Assembly: GCF_001038505.1 (NCBI RefSeq)
Contig: NZ_LDPY01000001.1
Coordinates: 806,001 to 870,000, forward strand
Reading direction: 5' to 3'
Length of the DNA stretch: 64,000 nucleotides
From: Puniceibacterium sp. IMCC21224
GTDB taxonomy: Bacteria; Pseudomonadota; Alphaproteobacteria; Rhodobacterales; Rhodobacteraceae
In this document: in pieces, positions 40,124 through 57,297 of the stretch
Layout of the letters: each line of letters begins with the position of its first letter
How positions within the stretch are numbered: position 1 is the first letter of the stretch
The notes under the pieces: model-generated
Database searches by the model: none
The model's input: the letters and a program-made list of their open reading frames with translations, nothing else
Told to the model about the DNA's origin: nothing
Made by a program: the position numbers and the translations under genes

Positions 40124-40399
40124 TTGGCACCAAGATACAGCGACGAGTTCAGACGTGATGCGGTTCGCATTGCAACAAGCAGTGGACTGACGCGACCTCA
40201 GATTGCGTCTGATTTAGGGGTTGGTGTTTCGACACTGAACAAGTGGGTTCAACACCATCAGAATGATGACCTGATGTCCGGCCCGCATGAGGATGTGGAG
40301 AAGGAGAACGCCCGCCTTCGCAAAGAGAACCGGCTACTCCGCGAGGAGAGGGGAGTGTTAAAGAAGGCGACGATCTTCTTCGCAGGCCAAAAGGCGTGA
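40124..40399 (+). CDS. IS3-family transposase OrfA (copy 1)
   Basis: A 91-residue DNA-binding subunit. The HTH (LTRPQIASDLGVGVSTLNKW, residues about 18-38) is followed by a leucine-zipper-like coiled coil (ENARLRKENRLLREER). It starts with TTG 40124 after GGAG, and the stop overlaps OrfB by four bases (GTGA). Residue 79 is Gly here and Glu in copy 2. OrfA binds the IS ends and can fuse to OrfB by -1 frameshifting. Confidence 0.9.
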   Translation: MAPRYSDEFRRDAVRIATSSGLTRPQIASDLGVGVSTLNKWVQHHQNDDLMSGPHEDVEKENARLRKENRLLREERGVLKKATIFFAGQKA

Positions 40400-41262
40400 G
40401 GTTTGCCTTTATCGACACCTGGAAGAAGATCTGGCCCATTGAGTTTCTATGCCGCGTTTTGCGGGTAACTTCCCGTGGGTTTCGCGCCTGGAAGATCCGC
40501 CCTATCAGCCGAAGCCAGCGAGATGACATGGTGCTGTTGGCCCATATCAGAGAACAACACCGCCTTAGCCTGCAAAGCTACGGCCGACCTCGCATGACGG
40601 AGGAACTGCGCGATCTCGGTCTTGTTGTCGGGCACCGCCGGGTAGGCCGGTTGATGCGTGAGAACGCGATCAAGGTTATTCGAACCCGTAAACATAAAGT
40701 CACGACTAACAGCAATCACGCCTTCAATGTCGCCCCCAACTTTCTTGATCAGGACTTCTCTGCTGATGGCCCAAACCAAAAATGGGCAGGGGACATTTCC
40801 TACATCTGGACGAGCGAGGGATGGCTGTATTTGGCCGTGATCATCGATCTTTACTCCCGCCGGGTCATTGGCTGGGCGGTCAGTAACCGGATGAAGCGGG
40901 ACCTGGCCATCAAGGCATTAGACATGGCAGTAGGGCTGCGAAAGCCACCCAAAGGCTGTATCCATCATACGGATCGTGGCTCTCAATACTGTTCAGGTGA
41001 CTATCAGAAAAGTCTGAAGCAGCATGGATTTCTGGTCTCAATGAGCGGCAAGGGAAATTGTTATGACAATTCCATGGTCGAGACCTTCTTCAAATCTCTG
41101 AAAGCCGAACTGATCTGGCGTCAGAAATGGGCGACCCGCAGACAAGCAGAAGGAGCAATATTCCAATACATCAATGGGTTCTACAACCCGCGAAGACGGC
41201 ATTCATCCCTTGGCGGGAAAAGTCCCTTGGCTTTCGAGAGACGGCCTCCTAACATGAGCTGA
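40396..41262 (+). CDS. IS3-family transposase OrfB (copy 1)
   Basis: A 288-residue catalytic subunit with the rve integrase core. The DDE residues lie in WAGDISYIWT, HHTDRGSQY and SMVETFFKSLK. Starting at GTG 40396 it overlaps OrfA, so it is made by coupling or frameshift fusion. A one-base indel near the end makes this copy finish ERRPPNMS instead of ERRAA in copy 2; the end is non-catalytic, so both copies should be active. Confidence 0.9.
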   Translation: MRFAFIDTWKKIWPIEFLCRVLRVTSRGFRAWKIRPISRSQRDDMVLLAHIREQHRLSLQSYGRPRMTEELRDLGLVVGHRRVGRLMRENAIKVIRTRKHKVTTNSNHAFNVAPNFLDQDFSADGPNQKWAGDISYIWTSEGWLYLAVIIDLYSRRVIGWAVSNRMKRDLAIKALDMAVGLRKPPKGCIHHTDRGSQYCSGDYQKSLKQHGFLVSMSGKGNCYDNSMVETFFKSLKAELIWRQKWATRRQAEGAIFQYINGFYNPRRRHSSLGGKSPLAFERRPPNMS

Positions 41263-41879: not shown

Positions 41880-42010
41880 AGGGTTTAGGCAAAACCACGG
41901 TTAGTGTCGGTTAAAATCCATTCTCCTTTTTTCCTTGTCCGGTAATCCCCCCCGAAAGTAAGGGGCTGCGGAAGTAGAATTTTCTCGGCAAGATGCATGA
42001 GGAGATTCAG

Positions 42011-42274
42011 ATGAAGATGACGAGATACAGTGAGCCGCAGATCCTTGCGATCCTGCGCCAGGCCGAAGGCGGTGTTCCTGTGGCCGAGCTTTGCCGCGAA
42101 CATGGTATGAGCACAGCGTCCTTTTACAAATGGCGGGCGAAGTATGGCGGGATGGATGCTTCAATGATCGCGCAGACCAAGGCGCTTGAAGACGAGAACC
42201 GACGCCTGAAGAAGATGTTCGCAGAGTTGAGCATGCAGAACGAGTTGCTGAAGGAAGCCCTTGGAAAAAAGTGA
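42011..42274 (+). CDS. IS3-family transposase OrfA (copy A)
   Basis: An 87-residue HTH subunit ([15 protein letters not shown], then [18 protein letters not shown]) with a leucine-zipper helix. ATG 42011 is placed behind GAGGAG at seven bases; an in-frame ATG at 41993 is also possible. The end has an A-rich slippery stretch (GGAAAAAAGTGA) and overlaps OrfB by four bases, which fits the frameshift signal of the family. Confidence 0.9.
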
Positions 42275-43085
42275 CTGGGCCATCTCAGCGACGAGAGATG
42301 GCCGCAACGGCGGTAGAGCGACGCGGGGTCAGTGTCGCCGTGGCGTGCCGCACCTTTGGGGTTAGCGAGACCTGCTATCGCTACAGCCCGCTTCTGAGCG
42401 ATGAGAACGAACAGATTGCCGATTTGCTTGTCGGGCTGACGGATACGAGGAAGACTTGGGGCTTCGGACTTTGCTATCTGCACCTGCGCAACGTCAAAGG
42501 TCATCCGTGGAACCATAAGCGGGTCTATCGCATCTATTGCGCGCTGGAACTGAACCTGCGGATTAAGCCCCGCAAACGGCTAAAGCGGGATAAACCCGAC
42601 GCGCTGGCGGTACCCGAGGCCCCCAACATGACCTGGTCGATGGACTTTATGGCCGACAGGCTGAGCGACGGTCGTCAGTTTCGACTGCTGAACGTGCTGG
42701 ACGACTTCAACCGCGAAGGGCTTGGCATTGAGGTCGACTTTTCATTGCCTGCTGAACGCGTGATCCGGAGCCTCGATCGCATCATCGAATGGCGTGGCAA
42801 GCCCGGCACGATCCGGGTCGATAATGGCCCTGAATACATCAGCATCAAGCTGCTGGAATGGGCTGAGAAACAAGGTGTTACCCTCCAGCACAGCCCCAGC
42901 AGAACGCCTACATCGAACGTTACAACCGCACCGTCAGGAATGAATGGCTGGACCAACACATCATCGAAAACATCGAGGAGGCCCAAGACTTCGCCACGCA
43001 ATGGCTCTGGACTTACAACAACGACCGCCCGAACATGGGCATCGGCGGCATCACACCCGCACAGAAACTGAAAATGGCCGCGTAA
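42271..43085 (+). pseudogene. IS3-family transposase OrfB (copy A), 13-bp deletion
   Basis: This copy matches OrfB of copy B until the codons for TLQH, then loses 13 bases, between short ACA repeats near 42890-42900. The frame shifts into a wrong C-terminus ending at 43071. The lost part includes the catalytic glutamate region ([10 protein letters not shown] in copy B), so the first two catalytic aspartates remain but the protein cannot be active. Beyond the deletion the original frame is still readable to the stop at 43083-43085. Confidence 0.9.
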
Positions 43086-43124
43086 GTTCTACGGCTGCAC
43101 CCCATTAAAAATGGGGGGATTACC

Positions 43125-43293
43125 GAGGAGACCGATCGGCCAGCGCATCGAACCCGCCCTCGACGTAGCGATCATACCAGCGGTAGAAAGTCGTGCGCGG
43201 AATGCCCAGCATATCCAGCGTCATTTTGGTGGGCAGATGCGAACCTTCAACGGTGCGGATGATCTCAAGCTTCTCGGTTGCAGGGTATCTCAT
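43125..43293 (-). pseudogene. IS3-family OrfB, N-terminal fragment
   Basis: The first 56 codons of an OrfB beginning MRYPATEKLEIIRTVEG, with an HTH_21-like start typical of this transposase class. It starts at ATG 43293, overlapping the orfA stop by four bases, and is cut at 43125 by IS copy A, losing the entire catalytic domain. Confidence 0.85.
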
Positions 43294-45121: not shown

Positions 45122-45211
45122 GGAGACGTGGCCGAGTGGTCGAAGGCGCTCCCCTGCTAAGGGAGTAGGCCCGGAAGGGTCTCGAGGGTTCGAATCCCTT
45201 CGTCTCCGCCA
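45122..45211 (+). tRNA. tRNA-Ser (GCU anticodon)
   Basis: A 90-nt tRNA with a long variable arm and encoded CCA. The acceptor stem is GGAGACG (45122-45128) with CGTCTCC (45201-45207), discriminator G. The anticodon GCT is at 45156-45158, and the T-arm reads AGGGTTCGAATCCCT. It decodes AGC and AGU serine codons and is commonly single-copy. A possible promoter (TTGTAA 45085, TATACG 45109) is upstream. Confidence 0.97.
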
Positions 45212-45482: not shown

Positions 45483-46490
45483 TCATTCATCAGGTACGAG
45501 ATCCCAGAAATGAGGATCTCGATCAATCAGAGCTTCTTTGGCCAACGGTACTAGTCCTGACATATCAACCGTAAACCGAACGTCAGAAACGCTTGGCGGG
45601 AGTGGGCCCCTCAAAGCGGGTATCTCACGTAAGTCGAAAAACTCGAGAGAGGTTGCCGCAAGGCGCGGATCAAACGAAACTTGCATTGACTCGGAGAGAC
45701 TGGAACCAAGGGTTGAAGCGACAACCTGATGAAGTTTAAGAACAAGGTCTTCGTCTGCTGCAATCCGTTCCTCGATCGAACCAATCAGACTGTCTAAAGA
45801 AATCCCACTAGGAATGCGCTCTACCATAATTGACGCAACGACAGCTTCGGTGCCTGGCGGCGGATTGCACTGATCGTACGAAAATGTGTGCTTACGGGTC
45901 CTGACGGCACTGCTTTTGACATCTATCCGAACGTCCCCGGAGGCGAAGTCGTAGCGCGACGCTTCGTCGATGCGCCAAGCCGCAACTGCCCTTGTCGGAC
46001 TTCGACTCTGCAAAATCATGAAAAGCTCGCCAAACAGTCCGTTTAACGAGCGGACAGGCGGCTTTTTAATGCTTTGAAATATCGACGCGATACGACGTAC
46101 AGCCGCAGCAATTGAGGTCCGCGAAGGAGCACTCCCCAAGTGCCGCATGATGATCCGGCATACTGAGAGGAAGTACCGGATTGTTTCAGTCTCTAGGGAT
46201 CGGCACCTGACTACAGTAAACAGATCTTCCCTTACCTCACCTGTGGGGTCCCTAATCACACAAGCGAGCTCGAACTGCGCGTCCAGGCTTTCAAGTCGGA
46301 TGGGCGGGGGTTTTCGTCCAAACTCATTCGCAGTTGCTATAAGCAGGCACGCTCGTGCGGAAGCGTCTTTGCCTACGAAGTAGGTGCTATGCTCGGCAAC
46401 CGGCCTGACCGTAAAAAACGGTGTGCCTGCACTTTCGCTATCGGGCACAACTATGCCCTCATAGATGGCGAAAAGCCCAGGTTCTGTCAC
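45483..46490 (-). CDS. PD-(D/E)XK motif protein (DUF4420-like), probable nuclease of the MORC-type RM system
   Basis: A 335-residue protein and the last gene of the operon. GTG 46490 gives a GTGA overlap with the Z1 gene; the frame is open 20 codons further inside that gene. The nuclease-like core is near the middle: a glutamate in NGLFGELFMIL, then YDFASGDVRIDVKSS, which supplies the Asp and the D-x-K pair of the PD-(D/E)XK fold. Proteins of this type accompany Z1 and MORC ATPases in the restriction systems described by Iyer and colleagues. It probably cleaves unmodified DNA, but activity is inferred from the motif. Confidence 0.8.
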   Translation of the reverse strand: MTEPGLFAIYEGIVVPDSESAGTPFFTVRPVAEHSTYFVGKDASARACLLIATANEFGRKPPPIRLESLDAQFELACVIRDPTGEVREDLFTVVRCRSLETETIRYFLSVCRIIMRHLGSAPSRTSIAAAVRRIASIFQSIKKPPVRSLNGLFGELFMILQSRSPTRAVAAWRIDEASRYDFASGDVRIDVKSSAVRTRKHTFSYDQCNPPPGTEAVVASIMVERIPSGISLDSLIGSIEERIAADEDLVLKLHQVVASTLGSSLSESMQVSFDPRLAATSLEFFDLREIPALRGPLPPSVSDVRFTVDMSGLVPLAKEALIDRDPHFWDLVPDE

Positions 46491-48712
46491 GTATTCTGGC
46501 CTGGTTGATTTTGGTTTATCCAGCCCACCGCGAGCCGAGAGGGAACCCAAACCGCCAGGACAGGAACGTTCTCTCGAACAACTGATCCGTCACGTGTCAG
46601 GTCAAGTGTGTGTATCTGGACCGTGACATGTCCTTCTTCCCGAACAGCACGGTCGCCAGGATAGACTTCTCCTCTCCGTGCGGGCGGATTCACGGGCGCT
46701 TGACCCTGGAAGAGGTTGGTAACCTCGCCGCTACCATCAACGCCGCGTTCGCGTCCAGTTCTTGGGCTCATGCGGTAGACTGCGCACGGCTCGTCCGGGT
46801 CATTTTCAAGCGCCCGGCTAAGCTGCAGCAGGAGCCCAGTTATCTGCTGTGAGTCGCGGGAGCTCGTAATGCGCATCGGAATGAGCAGCCGTTCCAACAC
46901 ATCGCGCAGCGATAAGCCCGTCGCCACTTCGTGACGCTGAGTGTCTGTCCTGTCTTGGTGACCTTCGTCATCAATGAACTGAGTATTCGCAAGAAAATCC
47001 GCAACGGTTTGCCGATTGGCTTGAAGCACGTTGTCGGTCGCCAAAACCACACGTGGTGCAACCCAGTCATCAGAAAATCGTCCACGTATATAGTCAAACT
47101 CCAGGACGTTTTGACGGCAAGGTCGAAGAGCGTTGTCCAAAACAAAGGCGCGCTTCCAATCGTTTAAAGAACGTCCGCTATCGCGAATGTCTTCGAGTTG
47201 GACGCGCATGTCTTCCTCATGCTCGACATAACGTTGGAAGGCACGATGAGTGCCTTGCTCTAGGTAAACACGACAATAGCCGAGGTAGCCTCGCTTGTAG
47301 CCAAAGAAACGCGCCCGCTGCTGTACGGTGTCCGCGTTGCCAACGCCGATCCCGCGCGGCATGTAGGTCACGGTCAAACCTTCAATGGTGAAACCGCGGT
47401 CCATGGCCTGCCCGCCCACGAGAATCCAACCGTATGAGCTACCCCAATCCACTCTTGGAGTGGGTCCAGAGCGCGCGTTGACTTCGAGGAGGCGGGTTCG
47501 TCGAAAGGCAAATCGAAAGGTCGGTGCCAATTGATCGAAGGACGGCAAACCTGCCGGCGCGGTTTGCGCAAGATCGTCATATGCAACGCGCAGTTCCTCG
47601 ACCAGTTCTTGCTTGTCAGGATCCGTATCAGGTAAGCCAAGAACACGCTTCCATTCTTCAAATATATCGCGAACCCAATTATAAAACTCTTGATGCTGAG
47701 CGGTAAGGTGCGACGGATGGACGAGCATGGAGCGATTGCCACGATTTCCCGCTTCCATTAGGCCGACAGCAACGCCAACCATGAAAATTCGCAGAGCCTC
47801 GAGTAGCGATTCCGGAGGCTCCGGAAGAGGATTGGCATTGGTTGGCACATCGGCCGGCGGAATTGTGCGAACATATTGTTGATTGTCGTCAAAGAAATCT
47901 CTTCCCCCGACATAGGCGTCGCCAGGCGTCAGGACTTCAACAAAATTTGGTGACAGGGCGTCAACAATACTAATCAGAAGCGGGGCCTGTGGAGTCGCGG
48001 TGTATTGCAGATAACTGTGCAGTGGTAGCGCGTCGCGGAGCGCCATCAGGCGGCGGTAGGTGGTGCTTTCTTCACCCTGGGCGACTTCCGTGTTGAGGCT
48101 CGCTTGATCGGCCTCGTCATCAATGATGAGAACGGGCACCCTTTCCATACCGACAGTCTGCAGAAGATGGGTCAGATTGCCTAATCGGCCGTGATGCTTG
48201 AGTACGGTGACCAGCACCGTCATCTTGTACTCGTCTGGGGTGCCTTCATCTCGCCAGTCGTCAAAGACATCTCGCATGGTTTGGACGATAGCGTCCTCTT
48301 GTTCGGGATTCTGGAAATGAATCCAACTCCTCGCGCGGCTTGAGTCATCCAGGCGAAAATCGTCGCGCACGCGTCCAGTCGATTGTTCGAGAAGGGGCTT
48401 TGAGGTCCCAGCAACAATGATGACCATCTGGAAGCCGTTATCACGGGCAAGAGCCGCCGCAGTTTCAAACGACATGGTCTTGCCGCTTTGAACATAGCCA
48501 ACTACCAGACCCGTTTCTTGTCCGGCTGGATCATTGGGTGAAATGCCGCGTCCCAGAATTGAGGCGGCGGCATCTCGTACAATGTCACGACTACCGCCAG
48601 GTACAACATGCTCAAGGAAATCATGGGTTTCCGGGCCGACCACAGGCTGCCAGCGCCCCACCTGCACTTCGTGGTCTATCGGCTGAACAACAAAGGGAGC
48701 ATCATCTGTCAT
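46487..48712 (-). CDS. Z1-domain superfamily II helicase-like ATPase
   Basis: A 741-residue protein. Walker A is VGYVQSGKTMSF (residues 71-82), Walker B is LIIDDEADQASL (about 195), and YTATPQAPL (about 240) forms the usual motif III of superfamily II. The central part (SMLVHPSHLTAQHQ, then MDRGFTIEGLTVTYMPRG) is the Z1 signature region. ATG 48712 follows AGGTGATCC. It probably translocates on DNA to bring the nuclease to its target. It is 17 bases downstream of the ATPase gene and overlaps the nuclease gene. Confidence 0.9.
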   Translation of the reverse strand: MTDDAPFVVQPIDHEVQVGRWQPVVGPETHDFLEHVVPGGSRDIVRDAAASILGRGISPNDPAGQETGLVVGYVQSGKTMSFETAAALARDNGFQMVIIVAGTSKPLLEQSTGRVRDDFRLDDSSRARSWIHFQNPEQEDAIVQTMRDVFDDWRDEGTPDEYKMTVLVTVLKHHGRLGNLTHLLQTVGMERVPVLIIDDEADQASLNTEVAQGEESTTYRRLMALRDALPLHSYLQYTATPQAPLLISIVDALSPNFVEVLTPGDAYVGGRDFFDDNQQYVRTIPPADVPTNANPLPEPPESLLEALRIFMVGVAVGLMEAGNRGNRSMLVHPSHLTAQHQEFYNWVRDIFEEWKRVLGLPDTDPDKQELVEELRVAYDDLAQTAPAGLPSFDQLAPTFRFAFRRTRLLEVNARSGPTPRVDWGSSYGWILVGGQAMDRGFTIEGLTVTYMPRGIGVGNADTVQQRARFFGYKRGYLGYCRVYLEQGTHRAFQRYVEHEEDMRVQLEDIRDSGRSLNDWKRAFVLDNALRPCRQNVLEFDYIRGRFSDDWVAPRVVLATDNVLQANRQTVADFLANTQFIDDEGHQDRTDTQRHEVATGLSLRDVLERLLIPMRITSSRDSQQITGLLLQLSRALENDPDEPCAVYRMSPRTGRERGVDGSGEVTNLFQGQAPVNPPARRGEVYPGDRAVREEGHVTVQIHTLDLTRDGSVVRENVPVLAVWVPSRLAVGWINQNQPGQNT

Positions 48713-50304
48713 GGATCACCTATGAAATATTACGCATCCGAAAGCGCCTGACGAATAATGTCGTTTAAGTTTCGGCGGATCGTTCCGGCATGGCGCACGC
48801 CGGAGTCACGAGCCAATACTTCCGCAAGAGCAAGCGCAGCAGCTACTCGCAAGAGCGCCTCCACATCTTCGCTATCAGTTTGTGCAAATCGGACCATGAA
48901 TGGGTGCACCATCGAAACCCTAATGTCGAGACAACGCGGCTGCTCTGTTGAGGCGGCCACGTCGCTGAAAACCAACCAGAGGCTTTCTGACGGATCCTCG
49001 GTCAACTCTATGTTGATACGCCAGTCTTTGTCACGGAAGCGGATATCAAATTGCTTTCGTGCGAGAGTCCCCGCATGCGGCGATTCCTCGTCAGGCGCAT
49101 CGACTGGAGGTGCATCGGATATCGCTGGCAATGCCTCAGGCAGTCGCGCTGCGATCGCTCTCGCCGTGTTATCGACCGCTTGTGTCGCAGTGCGAGTCAT
49201 CTGAGCCCGAGCGACGCGCACGCGGTAGCCTTCTGCTTGTTTGAGCAGAGGCAAGTCTTCACTATCCAGGTGTTCACGTAACAGCTCTAGGAACGGCTGT
49301 TCGTTTTCGTCCCAACGAAAACCATCTTTTGTGTGGCTGACCTCGAAACCATCAAGGTGAAGTTCACCAAATAGCCGCTGATACCGGTAGCTATTCGAAC
49401 TTCCGAAGATGAAGGACGGTCGATATCCTTCGTCACCACTTCCTTCGATCACACGACCACGTCGGAAAAGCGAAAAGCCAGCCTTGGCCGTATTCGCCGT
49501 CTCCCGCAGAGCGGCAAAGCCTTGGACCGACAACCCATCTCCTAGGTCAAATGCGATGTCCTTTCGCCATAAGTTTGGTGGGCCTTCCATTTCGCGGAAG
49601 TATGGAGCTGACAGAATCGGCGGTTCTTGCGGCGCGAGAGTTTCGCCGTTGAAGCGAAGCTCCAGAGCCCCCTCGCGGATAAAGACACGGTAAATGTCAG
49701 TCAGGTGTTCCTTGAGTTTCCCGACTGTGCGCCCGACAGGGACGTGAAAGGTATTTTCCAACACGATCTCAGTATAGTGAAAATCGGCTTCTTCCTGCTC
49801 TTCCTCAATATCTAATTCTTCGATCTCATCATTGACAATGTTGGCGATCTCAAAACGCACGGTACGAGCCACCGGGTCACCAAAAGCAGACGTTCGAACA
49901 TACCACTGTGGTGCGAACCAGCAGGCGGCGCTTTTCATGCCCATTCCGAACTCAGCAAGACCAGTCCGGTCGGGTGGAATCGCGGCTGGGCGAAACGCTC
50001 GACCAAAATCCACGAGCGCGATGCCAGCGGCATTGTCACGGATAGAAATGCGAGCAGGAGATGTTGTGTCGATATCGATGCTTACGACGAGTTTGAAGTC
50101 GCCGCCATGGTGCGCCCGCAACTGGTTCTCATTTCGAGAGAAACTTTCGACCGCATTGTCCACGAATTCTGCAAGGGCGTACCAAGGCTTATAATTCAGA
50201 TGCCTCAATACTGCGAGAACACTCACGCCAGGACGGTAATCCCCCCCGAAAGTAAGGGGCTGCGGAAGTAGAATTTTCTCGGCAAGATGCATGAGGAGAT
50301 TCAG

Positions 50305-50568
50305 ATGAAGATGACGAGATACAGTGAGCCGCAGATCCTTGCGATCCTGCGCCAGGCCGAAGGCGGTGTTCCGGTGGCCGAGCTTTGCCGCGAACATGGT
50401 ATGAGCACAGCGTCCTTTTACAAATGGCGGGCGAAGTATGGCGGGATGGATGCTTCAATGATCGCGCAGACCAAGGCGCTTGAAGACGAGAACCGACGCC
50501 TGAAGAAGATGTTCGCAGAGTTGAGCATGCAGAACGAGTTGCTGAAGGAAGCCCTTGGAAAAAAGTGA
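50305..50568 (+). CDS. IS3-family transposase OrfA (copy B)
   Basis: An 87-residue HTH subunit identical in protein sequence to the one in copy A. ATG 50305 lies behind GAGGAG. The A-run before the stop and the GTGA overlap with OrfB are the expected frameshift site. It is intact. Confidence 0.92.
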
Positions 50569-51392
50569 CTGGGCCATCTCAGCGACGAGAGATGGCCGCA
50601 ACGGCGGTAGAGCGACGCGGGGTCAGTGTCGCCGTGGCGTGCCGCACCTTTGGGGTTAGCGAGACCTGCTATCGCTACAGCCCGCTTCTGAGCGATGAGA
50701 ACGAACAGATTGCCGATTTGCTTGTCGGGCTGACGGATACGAGGAAGACTTGGGGCTTCGGACTTTGCTATCTGCACCTGCGCAACGTCAAAGGTCATCC
50801 GTGGAACCATAAGCGGGTCTATCGCATCTATTGCGCGCTGGAACTGAACCTGCGGATTAAGCCCCGCAAACGGCTAAAGCGGGATAAACCCGACGCGCTG
50901 GCGGTACCCGAGGCCCCCAACATGACCTGGTCGATGGACTTTATGGCCGACAGGCTGAGCGACGGTCGTCAGTTTCGACTGCTGAACGTGCTGGACGACT
51001 TCAACCGCGAAGGGCTTGGCATTGAGGTCGACTTTTCATTGCCTGCTGAACGCGTGATCCGGAGCCTCGATCGCATCATCGAATGGCGTGGCAAGCCCGG
51101 CACGATCCGGGTCGATAATGGCCCTGAATACATCAGCATCAAGCTGCTGGAATGGGCTGAGAAACAAGGTGTTACCCTCCAGCACATCCAACCAGGACAG
51201 CCCCAGCAGAACGCCTACATCGAACGTTACAACCGCACCGTCAGGAATGAATGGCTGGACCAACACATCATCGAAAACATCGAGGAGGCCCAAGACTTCG
51301 CCACGCAATGGCTCTGGACTTACAACAACGACCGCCCGAACATGGGCATCGGCGGCATCACACCCGCACAGAAACTGAAAATGGCCGCGTAA
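50565..51392 (+). CDS. IS3-family transposase OrfB (copy B)
   Basis: A 275-residue catalytic subunit. The DDE triad is in [18 protein letters not shown] and [10 protein letters not shown]; the [17 protein letters not shown] segment is a hallmark of this IS3 subgroup. The protein ends [17 protein letters not shown], the normal C-terminus. It is the intact version of the gene broken in copy A and may be able to mobilise both copies. Confidence 0.93.
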
Positions 51393-51490
51393 GTTCTACG
51401 GCTGCACCCCATTAAAAATGGGGGGATTACCGGACGAATATCAACCTTTTGTGCCGCCAATTTGCGGTCCTTCCTATGCGATCCAGATAC

Positions 51491-52849
51491 TTATGCAGCC
51501 GTTTCAAATGCGGCTTTGGGCTGTTTCTTCTCCCTCGAGGGAGATGAAAAAACCCCTGTTCCGGAATTTTTGTCATCAGTAAGCGATAGGAGTTCTCGTG
51601 CAATCGCGTGAACCACATCAACATTCACAGCATTACCAAGAGCCTTAAAGGCTGCAGTCTGAGCCTCAGGCAAGTGCTCCAATTTTCCCATGCTTTGGAG
51701 GCGGCTGCATTCTCGCGTGGTCATATACCGCCGCTCCCAAGCGATCACGGGTACTTGGCTCGTCGTCATTGCGACCAACGAGGGTGCAGTGACTGGACGT
51801 TTGACGCGGATCCCCGATGCACGAAACTGGATGACGTAGTCCCAGATTAAACGCTTCTCGCCTTTGCAGTTCCATTCGAATTTCTGGAAGCTTGGCGCGA
51901 AACCACGGATGCGTGGTAGCCAGTCGTCAATCCAACTTTTGTGCCTCTCATAAAATTCGCGGTTCTGTCGGATGAAATCGATTTTCCACTTGGGATATCC
52001 GTCTGCGTTGCCGCGTGCGTAGGCCGGCAACGCCGAAACAACGTCTTCTGCCTTCAGATCACAAAGATGAGTTCCAAAACTTCCCTTATAGGAACCCAGT
52101 TCTTCAACGCCGATTCCGCATGCAGAGCGATCGAGGAAAGGATAAGTTGCCCCAAATTCCATCGCCCAAATCGGAAATGATGGCAACTGTTCATCTGCTG
52201 GAAAACGATCGAGAAACTCCTGCCACGCCTCGAGATAGCCTAGGAAACTCTCCGGCAAAGGCTTGGCGTCCTGTGGGTTCGTGTCGAGCACATTGTAGAT
52301 TGAAAGATTTGCTTCCAAGTGAGGCACCGGCCAGGAAAAGTCACCAAGCCCACCGCGTCGACCAACAATAAACGCACGTTCGCGAACTTGTGGGACACCC
52401 AATTGGTGAGGCGAGAGTTTTCCGTCATCCACGCTGTAACCAGCAAGGCGCAGTTTGTGCAAAATCTTACGCCATGTCTGACCCTGCCGGTGGCGAACAA
52501 GATTAGGAACATTCTCAATAATGAAGAATTCTGGCTTTTTTTGCCGCAAGATTCGGACAACGTAATCGATCAAGTCTCCCCATTGTGGGCATTCAAATCC
52601 TTGCTGACCTCCTGCCTTCGAGAAAGGTTGGCAGGGGAAACCTGCGCAAAGAATATCATGATCCGGAACGGAAGGCAGGTCGAGTGTACGAATGTCACCA
52701 TGAGGGACAATTCCAAAATTCTTTTCATAAAGGAGTGCTAAATTTTCGTCGCGTTCGCAAGCAAACACGCACTGATGGCCAAGTGACTGAAGAGCAAGGT
52801 GAAATCCACCGAGGCCAGCAAACAGATCAATGAATTTTAAAGTCCGCAT
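51491..52849 (-). CDS. DNA (cytosine-5-)-methyltransferase
   Basis: A 452-residue C5-methyltransferase. Motif I is FAGLGG (residues 10-15), the catalytic cysteine is Cys73 in [11 protein letters not shown], motif VI is IIENVPN (about 110-116), motif VIII is [10 protein letters not shown], and the C-terminal motifs IX-X include ALGNAVNV. A long central stretch (about 190-340) is the target-recognition region. It transfers methyl from SAM to protect host sites. It starts 1 bp after the upstream RHH gene and is followed after 30 bases by the ATPase gene, so it belongs to the restriction operon. The target site is unknown. Confidence 0.95.
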
Positions 52850-52850
52850 G

Positions 52851-53039
52851 TTATTCGATGTCCAGCTTAAGTTGCTGATCTCTATTCTCGTCGAGAAAAC
52901 GCAGAAGTGCGTATCTAACCACGTACTGCAGAGATAATGGTGGGCGGTGTGACGCAGCGATTTGCTTTAATTCGTCATGTGCTGATGCTTCCAATGAGAT
53001 CGTGAACCGTCGCATCTCGGTTGTTTCGACGTCTGGCAT
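52851..53039 (-). CDS. Ribbon-helix-helix protein, putative operon regulator
   Basis: A 62-residue protein with a predicted RHH fold: a beta strand ([11 protein letters not shown]) followed by two helices ([11 protein letters not shown], then [15 protein letters not shown]). The start at 53039 is preferred because the residues before it look unstructured. One base separates its stop from the methyltransferase start. It could be the controller of the restriction operon. Direct 10-bp repeats lie just upstream at 53077-53096. Confidence 0.75.
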
Positions 53040-53076
53040 GACCGCTCCCTCTGCCGCGCTGAACCAGATTACACAG

Positions 53077-53096
53077 GAATGCACCAGAATGCACCA
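53077..53096. promoter_or_regulatory. Tandem 10-bp repeat, candidate RHH operator
   Basis: GAATGCACCA occurs twice in a row, at 53077-53086 and 53087-53096, about 40 bases upstream of the RHH start (minus strand). Each unit has a palindromic TGCA core. RHH dimers commonly bind tandem sites one helical turn apart, so it may be an autoregulatory operator. Confidence 0.5.
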
Positions 53097-53123: not shown

Positions 53124-53516
53124 CTACCGGTTGGCCTCAAACTGGTCGTTGTGATCCTCCCATTTGGCCGATACTGGCTCCAGAAGCTTAGCCAGGGTGG
53201 CCTTTGGTCCTTGTCGGCCTTCCAAGATCGCCTCAACAAGATTCGGCGCCAGCAGAGTGATGCGCAGCACTCGTGTCATGTAGGAGAGCGCTATGCCTTC
53301 GCGATCCGCCAACTCGGCGATGGTTGTGAATTCGCCGGTTTCCAGCATCCGCTTCCAGCGAAACGCCCGCGCCAGTGCCTTGACCAACGTGTTATCCATC
53401 TTGCTGTGCCCAGATGCCCCATCCGGCATCTGCATCTCCTTGCGACCGCCGCGCTTCACGAGGCGGAACGGGATGTGCACTGTAACTGTTTCCGGCACTG
53501 GCTTCGCGCGGGTCAT
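53124..53516 (-). CDS. Putative HTH (ParB/KorB-like) protein of the recombinase module
   Basis: A 130-residue protein. The HTH is at about 60-95 (TIAELADREGIALSYMTRVL), resembling the ParB/KorB type; the first 40 residues are basic and probably extended. ATG 53516 overlaps the recombinase stop by four bases. In similar prophages such genes follow the large serine recombinase and are usually labelled hypothetical; a role in regulating or assisting recombination is inferred. Confidence 0.65.
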   Translation of the reverse strand: MTRAKPVPETVTVHIPFRLVKRGGRKEMQMPDGASGHSKMDNTLVKALARAFRWKRMLETGEFTTIAELADREGIALSYMTRVLRITLLAPNLVEAILEGRQGPKATLAKLLEPVSAKWEDHNDQFEANR

Positions 53517-54816
53517 ACGGCCGTTCCGACGTCAGCCATCATTTCGCGCGCGAGCCCGGTCAGCCCGTCCATGCGCAGGCGAACATCGAGGCCATCGGTG
53601 CCAATGTCGATCCGCTCGACCAGCAGCGACACGATGCGCGCTTGCTCAGCGGGGAAGAGTTCATCCCACAGTGGATCAAGACGGGTCAATGCGTCACGGG
53701 CGTCGGCCTCGGTGATCTCGTTATCCTGCGAGCGGGCCGCCTTCCATGTGCCCGCCACAATCTCAGGCTGGCGGAACACGGCGCGGAGCTGGTCAATCAC
53801 GGCGGCCTCGATCTCACCAGCGGGGACCCGCCCCACCGGACACGATCCAGCGCCGTGCTTCAGCACCGTCTGGCTGACATAGTATCGGTAGAGCTTGCCG
53901 CCCTTGCGCGTGTGGGTCGGCGAGAAGGCCGCCCCGTCGTGGCCGTAGAGCAACCCTTTGAGCAGTGCGGGCGTGTCGGCGCGGGTGCGCGCGGCTCGCT
54001 TGCGAGGGCTTTCAGTCAGGATGGCGTGGACCTTGTCCCAGACATCCCTTTCGATGATGGCATCATGCTCGCCGGGATAGCTGTTCCCCTTGTGCACGGC
54101 CTCGCCGATGTAGGCGCGGTTGTTCAGCAGGCGATACAGGTACTTCTTGTCGATCCGGTTGCCACGGCTGGTCTGAATGCCCCGTGCCGCCAGTTCACGA
54201 GCCAGTTCCGTGCCCGAGCCGATTTCGATGAAGCGGGCGAAAATCCAGCGGATGTTGGCGGCATCGGCCTCCTTGATGATCAGCTTTCGGTCCTTCACCT
54301 CGTAGCCCAGTGGCGGCACGCCGCCCATCCACATGCCCTTCATCCGGCTGGCGCGGACCTTGTCCCGAATACGTTCCGCCGTCACTTCGCGCTCGAATTG
54401 GGCGAATGACAGCAGGATGTTCAGCGTCAACCGCCCCATGGATGTGGTGGTGTTGAATGACTGAGTGACAGAAACGAAGGTCACGCCGTTTCGGTCAAAC
54501 ACCTCGACCAGTTTGGAAAAATCCATCAGCGAGCGCGACAGGCGGTCAATTTTGTAGACGACGACCACGTCGACCAGCCCGTCTTCGACATCGGCAAGCA
54601 GCCGTTTCAGGCCGGGACGTTCCAACGTCCCGCCCGAGATGCCACCATCGTCATACTGATCGCGGACCAACACCCAGCCTTCGGAGCGCTGGCTTGCGAT
54701 ATAGGCCTCGCAGGCCTCCCGTTGCGCGTGGAGCGAGTTGAATTCCTGCTCGAGCCCTTCCTCGGAGGATTTGCGCGTGTAGATCGCGCAGCGCAGTTTC
54801 CGGACAATCGGCTTGG

Positions 54817-54820
<4 letters not shown>
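53513..54820 (-). CDS. Large serine recombinase (resolvase/invertase family)
   Basis: A 435-residue site-specific recombinase. The N-terminal resolvase domain has the catalytic serine in IYTRKSSEEG (Ser18 or 19) and arginine motifs in KIDRLSRSLMDF and QFEREVTAERIRD. The recombinase domain (about 155-260) and zinc-ribbon-like region (about 290-330) follow. ATG 54820 is chosen for its ATGA overlap with the DUF2924 gene. It probably integrates and excises the element to its right, though attachment sites are not visible. The length is in the lower range for large serine recombinases. Confidence 0.92.
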
Positions 54821-55265
<445 letters not shown>

Positions 55266-55269
<4 letters not shown>

Positions 55270-55469
55270 GCATTTCTCCGGTGAGTTGGAGTTGCATGAC
55301 GCCATTCGTCGGCCGGATAGTGTAGGCAACTTTCTCCAATATCGTCAGATACTTCCGCCCGGTCCCGCATCCGTAGGCGAACCAACCCGAGAGCCAGCAG
55401 CCTGCACAGGTCGGCACGGCGTTCAGCTGGAGTCATCTGGTTGGGTGGGAGTGGATTGGGGCGTTTCAT
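55266..55469 (-). CDS. Small hypothetical protein of the recombinase module
   Basis: A 67-residue, basic protein (MTPAERRADLCRLLALGL and ending TPTHRRNA). It overlaps the DUF2924 start by four bases, which supports translation. It has no recognised domain; the RRADLCRLLALGLVRLRMR part could form one amphipathic helix. It is the first gene of the four-gene minus-strand recombinase operon. Confidence 0.7.
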
Positions 55470-56104: not shown

Positions 56105-56167
56105 TGGACTTGTCGCGATTTAGTTCCGGTCTCTTTCGAGCGATATTCGCAATGAAGGAGACACAAA

Positions 56168-56443
56168 TTGGCACCAAGATACAGCGACGAGTTCAGACGT
56201 GATGCGGTTCGCATTGCAACAAGCAGTGGACTGACGCGACCTCAGATTGCGTCTGATTTAGGGGTTGGTGTTTCGACACTGAACAAGTGGGTTCAACACC
56301 ATCAGAATGATGACCTGATGTCCGGCCCGCATGAGGATGTGGAGAAGGAGAACGCCCGCCTTCGCAAAGAGAACCGGCTACTCCGCGAGGAGAGGGAAGT
56401 GTTAAAGAAGGCGACGATCTTCTTCGCAGGCCAAAAGGCGTGA
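56168..56443 (+). CDS. IS3-family transposase OrfA (copy 2)
   Basis: A 91-residue OrfA, identical to copy 1 except that residue 79 is Glu, the likely original since it preserves the coiled coil (REEREVLKK). It starts at TTG 56168 after GGAG and overlaps OrfB by four bases. Confidence 0.9.
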   Translation: MAPRYSDEFRRDAVRIATSSGLTRPQIASDLGVGVSTLNKWVQHHQNDDLMSGPHEDVEKENARLRKENRLLREEREVLKKATIFFAGQKA

Positions 56444-57297
56444 GGTTTGCCTTTATCGACACCTGGAAGAAGATCTGGCCCATTGAGTTTCTATGCCGCG
56501 TTTTGCGGGTAACTTCCCGTGGGTTTCGCGCCTGGAAGATCCGCCCTATCAGCCGAAGCCAGCGAGATGACATGGTGCTGTTGGCCCATATCAGAGAACA
56601 ACACCGCCTTAGCCTGCAAAGCTACGGCCGACCTCGCATGACGGAGGAACTGCGCGATCTCGGTCTTGTTGTCGGGCACCGCCGGGTAGGCCGGTTGATG
56701 CGTGAGAACGCGATCAAGGTTATTCGAACCCGTAAACATAAAGTCACGACTAACAGCAATCACGCCTTCAATGTCGCCCCCAACTTTCTTGATCAGGACT
56801 TCTCTGCTGATGGCCCAAACCAAAAATGGGCAGGGGACATTTCCTACATCTGGACGAGCGAGGGATGGCTGTATTTGGCAGTGATCATCGATCTTTACTC
56901 CCGCCGGGTCATTGGCTGGGCGGTCAGTAACCGGATGAAGCGGGACCTGGCCATCAAGGCATTAGACATGGCAGTAGGGCTGCGAAAGCCACCCAAAGGC
57001 TGTATCCATCATACGGATCGTGGCTCTCAATACTGTTCAGGTGACTATCAGAAAAGTCTGAAGCAGCATGGATTTCTGGTCTCAATGAGCGGCAAGGGAA
57101 ATTGTTATGACAATTCCATGGTCGAGACCTTCTTCAAATCTCTGAAAGCCGAACTGATCTGGCGTCAGAAATGGGCGACCCGCAGACAAGCAGAAGGAGC
57201 AATATTCCAATACATCAATGGGTTCTACAACCCGCGAAGACGGCATTCATCCCTTGGCGGGAAAAGTCCCTTGGCTTTCGAGAGACGGGCTGCCTAA
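56440..57297 (+). CDS. IS3-family transposase OrfB (copy 2)
   Basis: A 285-residue catalytic subunit with the same DDE positions as copy 1 (GDISYI, HHTDRGSQY, MVETFFKS). It ends FERRAA, three residues shorter than copy 1 because of a one-base difference near the stop. It should be active. Confidence 0.9.
   Translation: MRFAFIDTWKKIWPIEFLCRVLRVTSRGFRAWKIRPISRSQRDDMVLLAHIREQHRLSLQSYGRPRMTEELRDLGLVVGHRRVGRLMRENAIKVIRTRKHKVTTNSNHAFNVAPNFLDQDFSADGPNQKWAGDISYIWTSEGWLYLAVIIDLYSRRVIGWAVSNRMKRDLAIKALDMAVGLRKPPKGCIHHTDRGSQYCSGDYQKSLKQHGFLVSMSGKGNCYDNSMVETFFKSLKAELIWRQKWATRRQAEGAIFQYINGFYNPRRRHSSLGGKSPLAFERRAA

Follow-up and report, generated by a model that had tools for sequence, protein, structure and literature searches.

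Operons encoding a MORC ATPase together with DNA-modifying enzymes are an already known family. The MORC operon type 3 of Iyer et al. (2008) comprises a MORC ATPase with the motif GhXhhpXXRhl, a superfamily 2 (SF2) helicase with a DThhQXuRhFG-like motif, a restriction endonuclease (RE)-fold nuclease and a cytosine methylase, the DNA methylase being frequent in such operons and not universal. We analyzed a locus of this kind in Puniceibacterium sp. IMCC21224, within a window of 64,000 nucleotides (contig NZ_LDPY01000001.1, positions 806,001 to 870,000; coordinates below are those of the window). Judged from its sequence, the locus is a four-gene DNA-defence operon with a small repressor-like gene and a predicted switch site, of a type that is rare in bacteria. 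Its components are as follows.

52851..53039, minus strand: ribbon-helix-helix (RHH)-like gene, 62 aa, predicted autorepressor
51491..52849, minus strand: C5-cytosine DNA methyltransferase (MTase), target-recognition region at approximately residues 168-360
51434..51460, minus strand: beginning of the ATPase gene, nine codons from a TTG start behind AGGAAGGA, separated from the remainder by an insertion sequence (IS)
48730..50232, minus strand: main part (body) of the gene for the MORC-type GHKL ATPase, with N-box EFVDN, glycine-rich EFGMGMK and MORC motif GFSLFRRGRVI
46487..48712, minus strand: operon gene between the ATPase body and the 45483..46490 gene
45483..46490, minus strand: DUF4420 nuclease gene, last in the operon

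The first-pass annotation of this DNA had described a C5-methyltransferase, a Bergerat-fold ATPase, a Z1 protein and a PD-(D/E)XK protein in a tight operon, and that observation was confirmed; its interpretation of the locus was supported in part. The ATPase segment GFSLFRRGRVI fits the MORC motif, with G252, R260 and I262 invariant in 31 rows. A profile of 31 ATPase sequences found MutL as its top PDB match, weakly (E 0.085), and no MORC protein was among the matches listed. The operon also contains an SF2 helicase with a C-terminal domain and the DThhQXuRhFG motif, an additional RE-fold protein with E-D-ExK, and a DNA methylase. Two checks that the annotation had proposed agreed with it: in a profile search the nuclease gene matched DUF4420 and nothing else, and in a neighbourhood survey the MORC gene was adjoined by a C5-MTase in 32 of 32 loci. 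The latter arrangement bears on whether the locus is an MZA anti-phage system, which differs in having no MTase and of which AIPR is a component. We consider this highly improbable, as the MzaC and MzaD equivalogs scored 87.8 of 1500 bits and 16.4 of 420 bits, a long way short of their curated cut-offs, no Mza model matched the ATPase, and AIPR, already noted as absent from the operon, had no match in the whole genome (1 of 14 control genomes matched).

The recognition region of the MTase, bounded by motifs VIII and IX, is conserved. Over residues 168-360, 30 of 32 relatives had no more than 5 gapped positions against the window MTase and were 41-91% identical to it. Mean identity over all pairs of these 31 rows, the window MTase counted, was 55.7%, compared with 65.3% in the remainder of the enzyme. 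The loci L040 and L037 have different C5-MTases, with 17-22% identity in this region and about half of it gapped. When the phylum was sampled with the MTase as seed, matches were obtained in 6 of 398 genomes; five spanned the recognition region, all beside a MORC gene (that of G476 distant, 30%), and the sixth was partial, with no MORC gene within the 1.5 kb seen. The alignments suggest that one and the same DNA word is guarded across the MORC operon family. The window MTase also matches the PADLOC DruM2 model (residues 3-428, E 7.8e-75), so it may have its target in common with some Druantia MTases.

Trees of the MTase and of MORC (quick trees of 27 rows spanning eight phyla, supported by the Shimodaira-Hasegawa-like approximate likelihood ratio test only) conflict. 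L016 and L017 combine a MORC of the window type with an MTase of the L034/L025/L026 group, and L024 and L031 are likewise mixed. Approximately unbiased tests, performed on 23 rows with ten long, partial or deviating rows left out and with groups picked after the tables had been seen, rejected the joining of L016 and L017 to the window group for the MTase (p 1.9e-5) and to L034, L025 and L026 for MORC (p 9e-143), as well as the joining of L024 to L025, L029, L026 and L034 for the MTase (p 9.8e-61). On a simple reading, the MTases of MORC operons would be exchangeable because all mark the same site.

In 12 of the 32 loci a homologue of the RHH gene lies upstream of the MTase; ten of these are strongly similar and the other two weakly so. 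At E<=0.1 the RHH_1 profile matched 15 of 38 members, the best at 0.0021, but not member 1; the value for ORF56 was E 0.022. Upstream of the RHH homologues are TGGTGCA-like repeats 10 bp apart, in surroundings that otherwise differ; the window has the following array.

53060..53096, minus strand: predicted operator for the RHH protein, made up of four heptads spaced exactly 10 bp apart and lying 21-57 bp upstream of the RHH start
53096-53090, minus strand: unit TGGTGCA, 7 of 7 bases matched
53086-53080, minus strand: unit TGGTGCA, 7 of 7
53076-53070, minus strand: degenerate unit, 4 of 7
53066-53060, minus strand: unit TGGTTCA, 6 of 7

The scan for repeat pairs covered 646 kb, made up of the window plus the 32 loci; 13 of these, the window included, are RHH loci and 20 are not. 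Nine pairs matching at least 13 of 14 bases occurred at 10-bp spacing, compared with a total of five at the remaining spacings from 7 to 15; each of 8 Markov-resampled control sets contained 0-2 at 10 bp. All nine fell within 8 of the 13 RHH loci, and the 20 loci without RHH had none. With the threshold lowered to 12, a pair preceded the gene in 12 of 13 RHH loci, the exception being L019; L022, where no RHH gene was detected, also had one at this threshold, an operator-like repeat before its MTase (L022:8297). G420, with an RHH protein 33% identical, likewise has a run of TGGTGCA-like units. The fixed 27-bp pattern of the window array occurred once in 337 genomes, at this locus. No promoter was detected in a sigma-70 scan. 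A spacing of one helical turn would suit RHH dimers lying side by side.

The first-pass annotation had placed the RHH gene before the MTase in the stead of a usual controller; the placement and the upstream repeats recur. Repression of the operon by the RHH protein is inferred. The protein might instead be a DNA-targeting subunit of the system and not a transcriptional repressor, a role proposed for DndE, with two RHH domains, in Dnd systems (PMC10853773). RHH and MTase adjoin and were apparently swapped jointly in L016, L017, L024 and L031, as that role would allow, but a subunit matched in 12 of 32 loci only is apparently dispensable, and the conserved repeat array precedes RHH's own gene; we regard targeting as unlikely. 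Returning to an RHH-repressed operon guarding one DNA word, two points weigh against it. The threshold of 12 is loose: spacings 9-11 gave a total of 36 pairs, and each of the 3 resampled sets contained 12-20. In the MTase survey, the window and G420 were already known and G804 is probably the same as the Rahnella contig L044, leaving little independent weight in the five matches. Both slightly lower our confidence in this explanation, which we nevertheless regard as fairly likely.

In this genome the operon is interrupted.

50235..51431, plus strand: IS3-family insertion sequence, orfA 50287-50568, orfB 50565-51392, with a GTCC 4-bp direct repeat on each side

The 1,197-bp element lies inside the ATPase gene, whose upstream remnant is the nine codons from the TTG. 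Its OrfB scored above the NF033516 cut-off, and it has 13-nt terminal inverted repeats and a 4-bp target duplication, as in the IS3 family. In the closest relative, L013, whose ATPase is 97% identical, the same site carries no insert. The operon is probably silenced here; the MTase and RHH genes are intact. Whether the locus is now in effect a solitary RHH-controlled methyltransferase, its restriction module decaying and only DNA marking kept, we judge evenly balanced; that concerns its present state and the preferred explanation the system, so both can hold. The genome has 14 full or nearly full copies of the element (99-100% identity, operon copy counted), including one at window 41940-43125, 99% identical and about 7 kb away. 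Two rve-type transposase genes with near-identical scores flank the region (40396-41262 and 56440-57297), and the genome is rich in insertion sequences, since 56105-56500 recurs at 18 further places (99-100% identity).

The operon sits within a recombinase island.

53124..53516, minus strand: small open reading frame with weak ParB/helix-turn-helix (HTH) similarity
53513..54976, minus strand: large serine recombinase
54817..55329, minus strand: DUF2924 gene
45122..45211, plus strand: tRNA-Ser(gct), far end of the island, a placement shared by L016, L017 and L084

The tRNA-Ser is 271 bp past the DUF4420 gene. L016 and L017 have the same trio ahead and tRNA-Ser about 270 bp after the operon, and in the same-genus genome G002 a related trio and tRNA-Ser bracket about 8.5 kb of different genes; the operon therefore looks like one of several cargos at this site. 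DUF4420 had no match in genome G002. In that island (L084, G002:C20:26500-41337), with unrelated cargo, the recombinase and DUF2924 genes are apparently shortened and a stretch around the recombinase start is missing.

Three features deserve further attention: the operator, the frozen recognition region and the exchangeable MTase. For MORC operon type 3, the available part of Iyer et al. (2008) mentions neither an RHH controller with a repeat operator nor a recognition region frozen in this way. A CglI-type system was rejected as a candidate: no PLD-type nuclease with a B3 domain was found, the nuclease gene matching DUF4420 only. CglI and NgoAVII are described as three-gene systems whose nuclease is of that type, with the site GCSGC (PMC4267653), whereas the window operon has a MORC gene and a DUF4420 PD-(D/E)XK nuclease. 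The C. diphtheriae BH8 island differs in that its nuclease is EcoRII-like and its MTase carries a fused Xre-type HTH; the portion of that report available names no MORC gene and leaves three proteins unclassified (PMC5379612). The order of the window operon, with the predicted repressor at the front, the protective enzyme next and the harmful enzymes last, resembles that of the omega-epsilon-zeta system, in which an RHH repressor gene is followed by a protective and then a harmful gene and the repressor binds repeats of its own promoter cooperatively (PMC3874152). That system is a toxin-antitoxin system, whereas the window operon is a putative restriction-modification system. The omega heptads are 7 bp apart, compared with 10 bp in the window operator.
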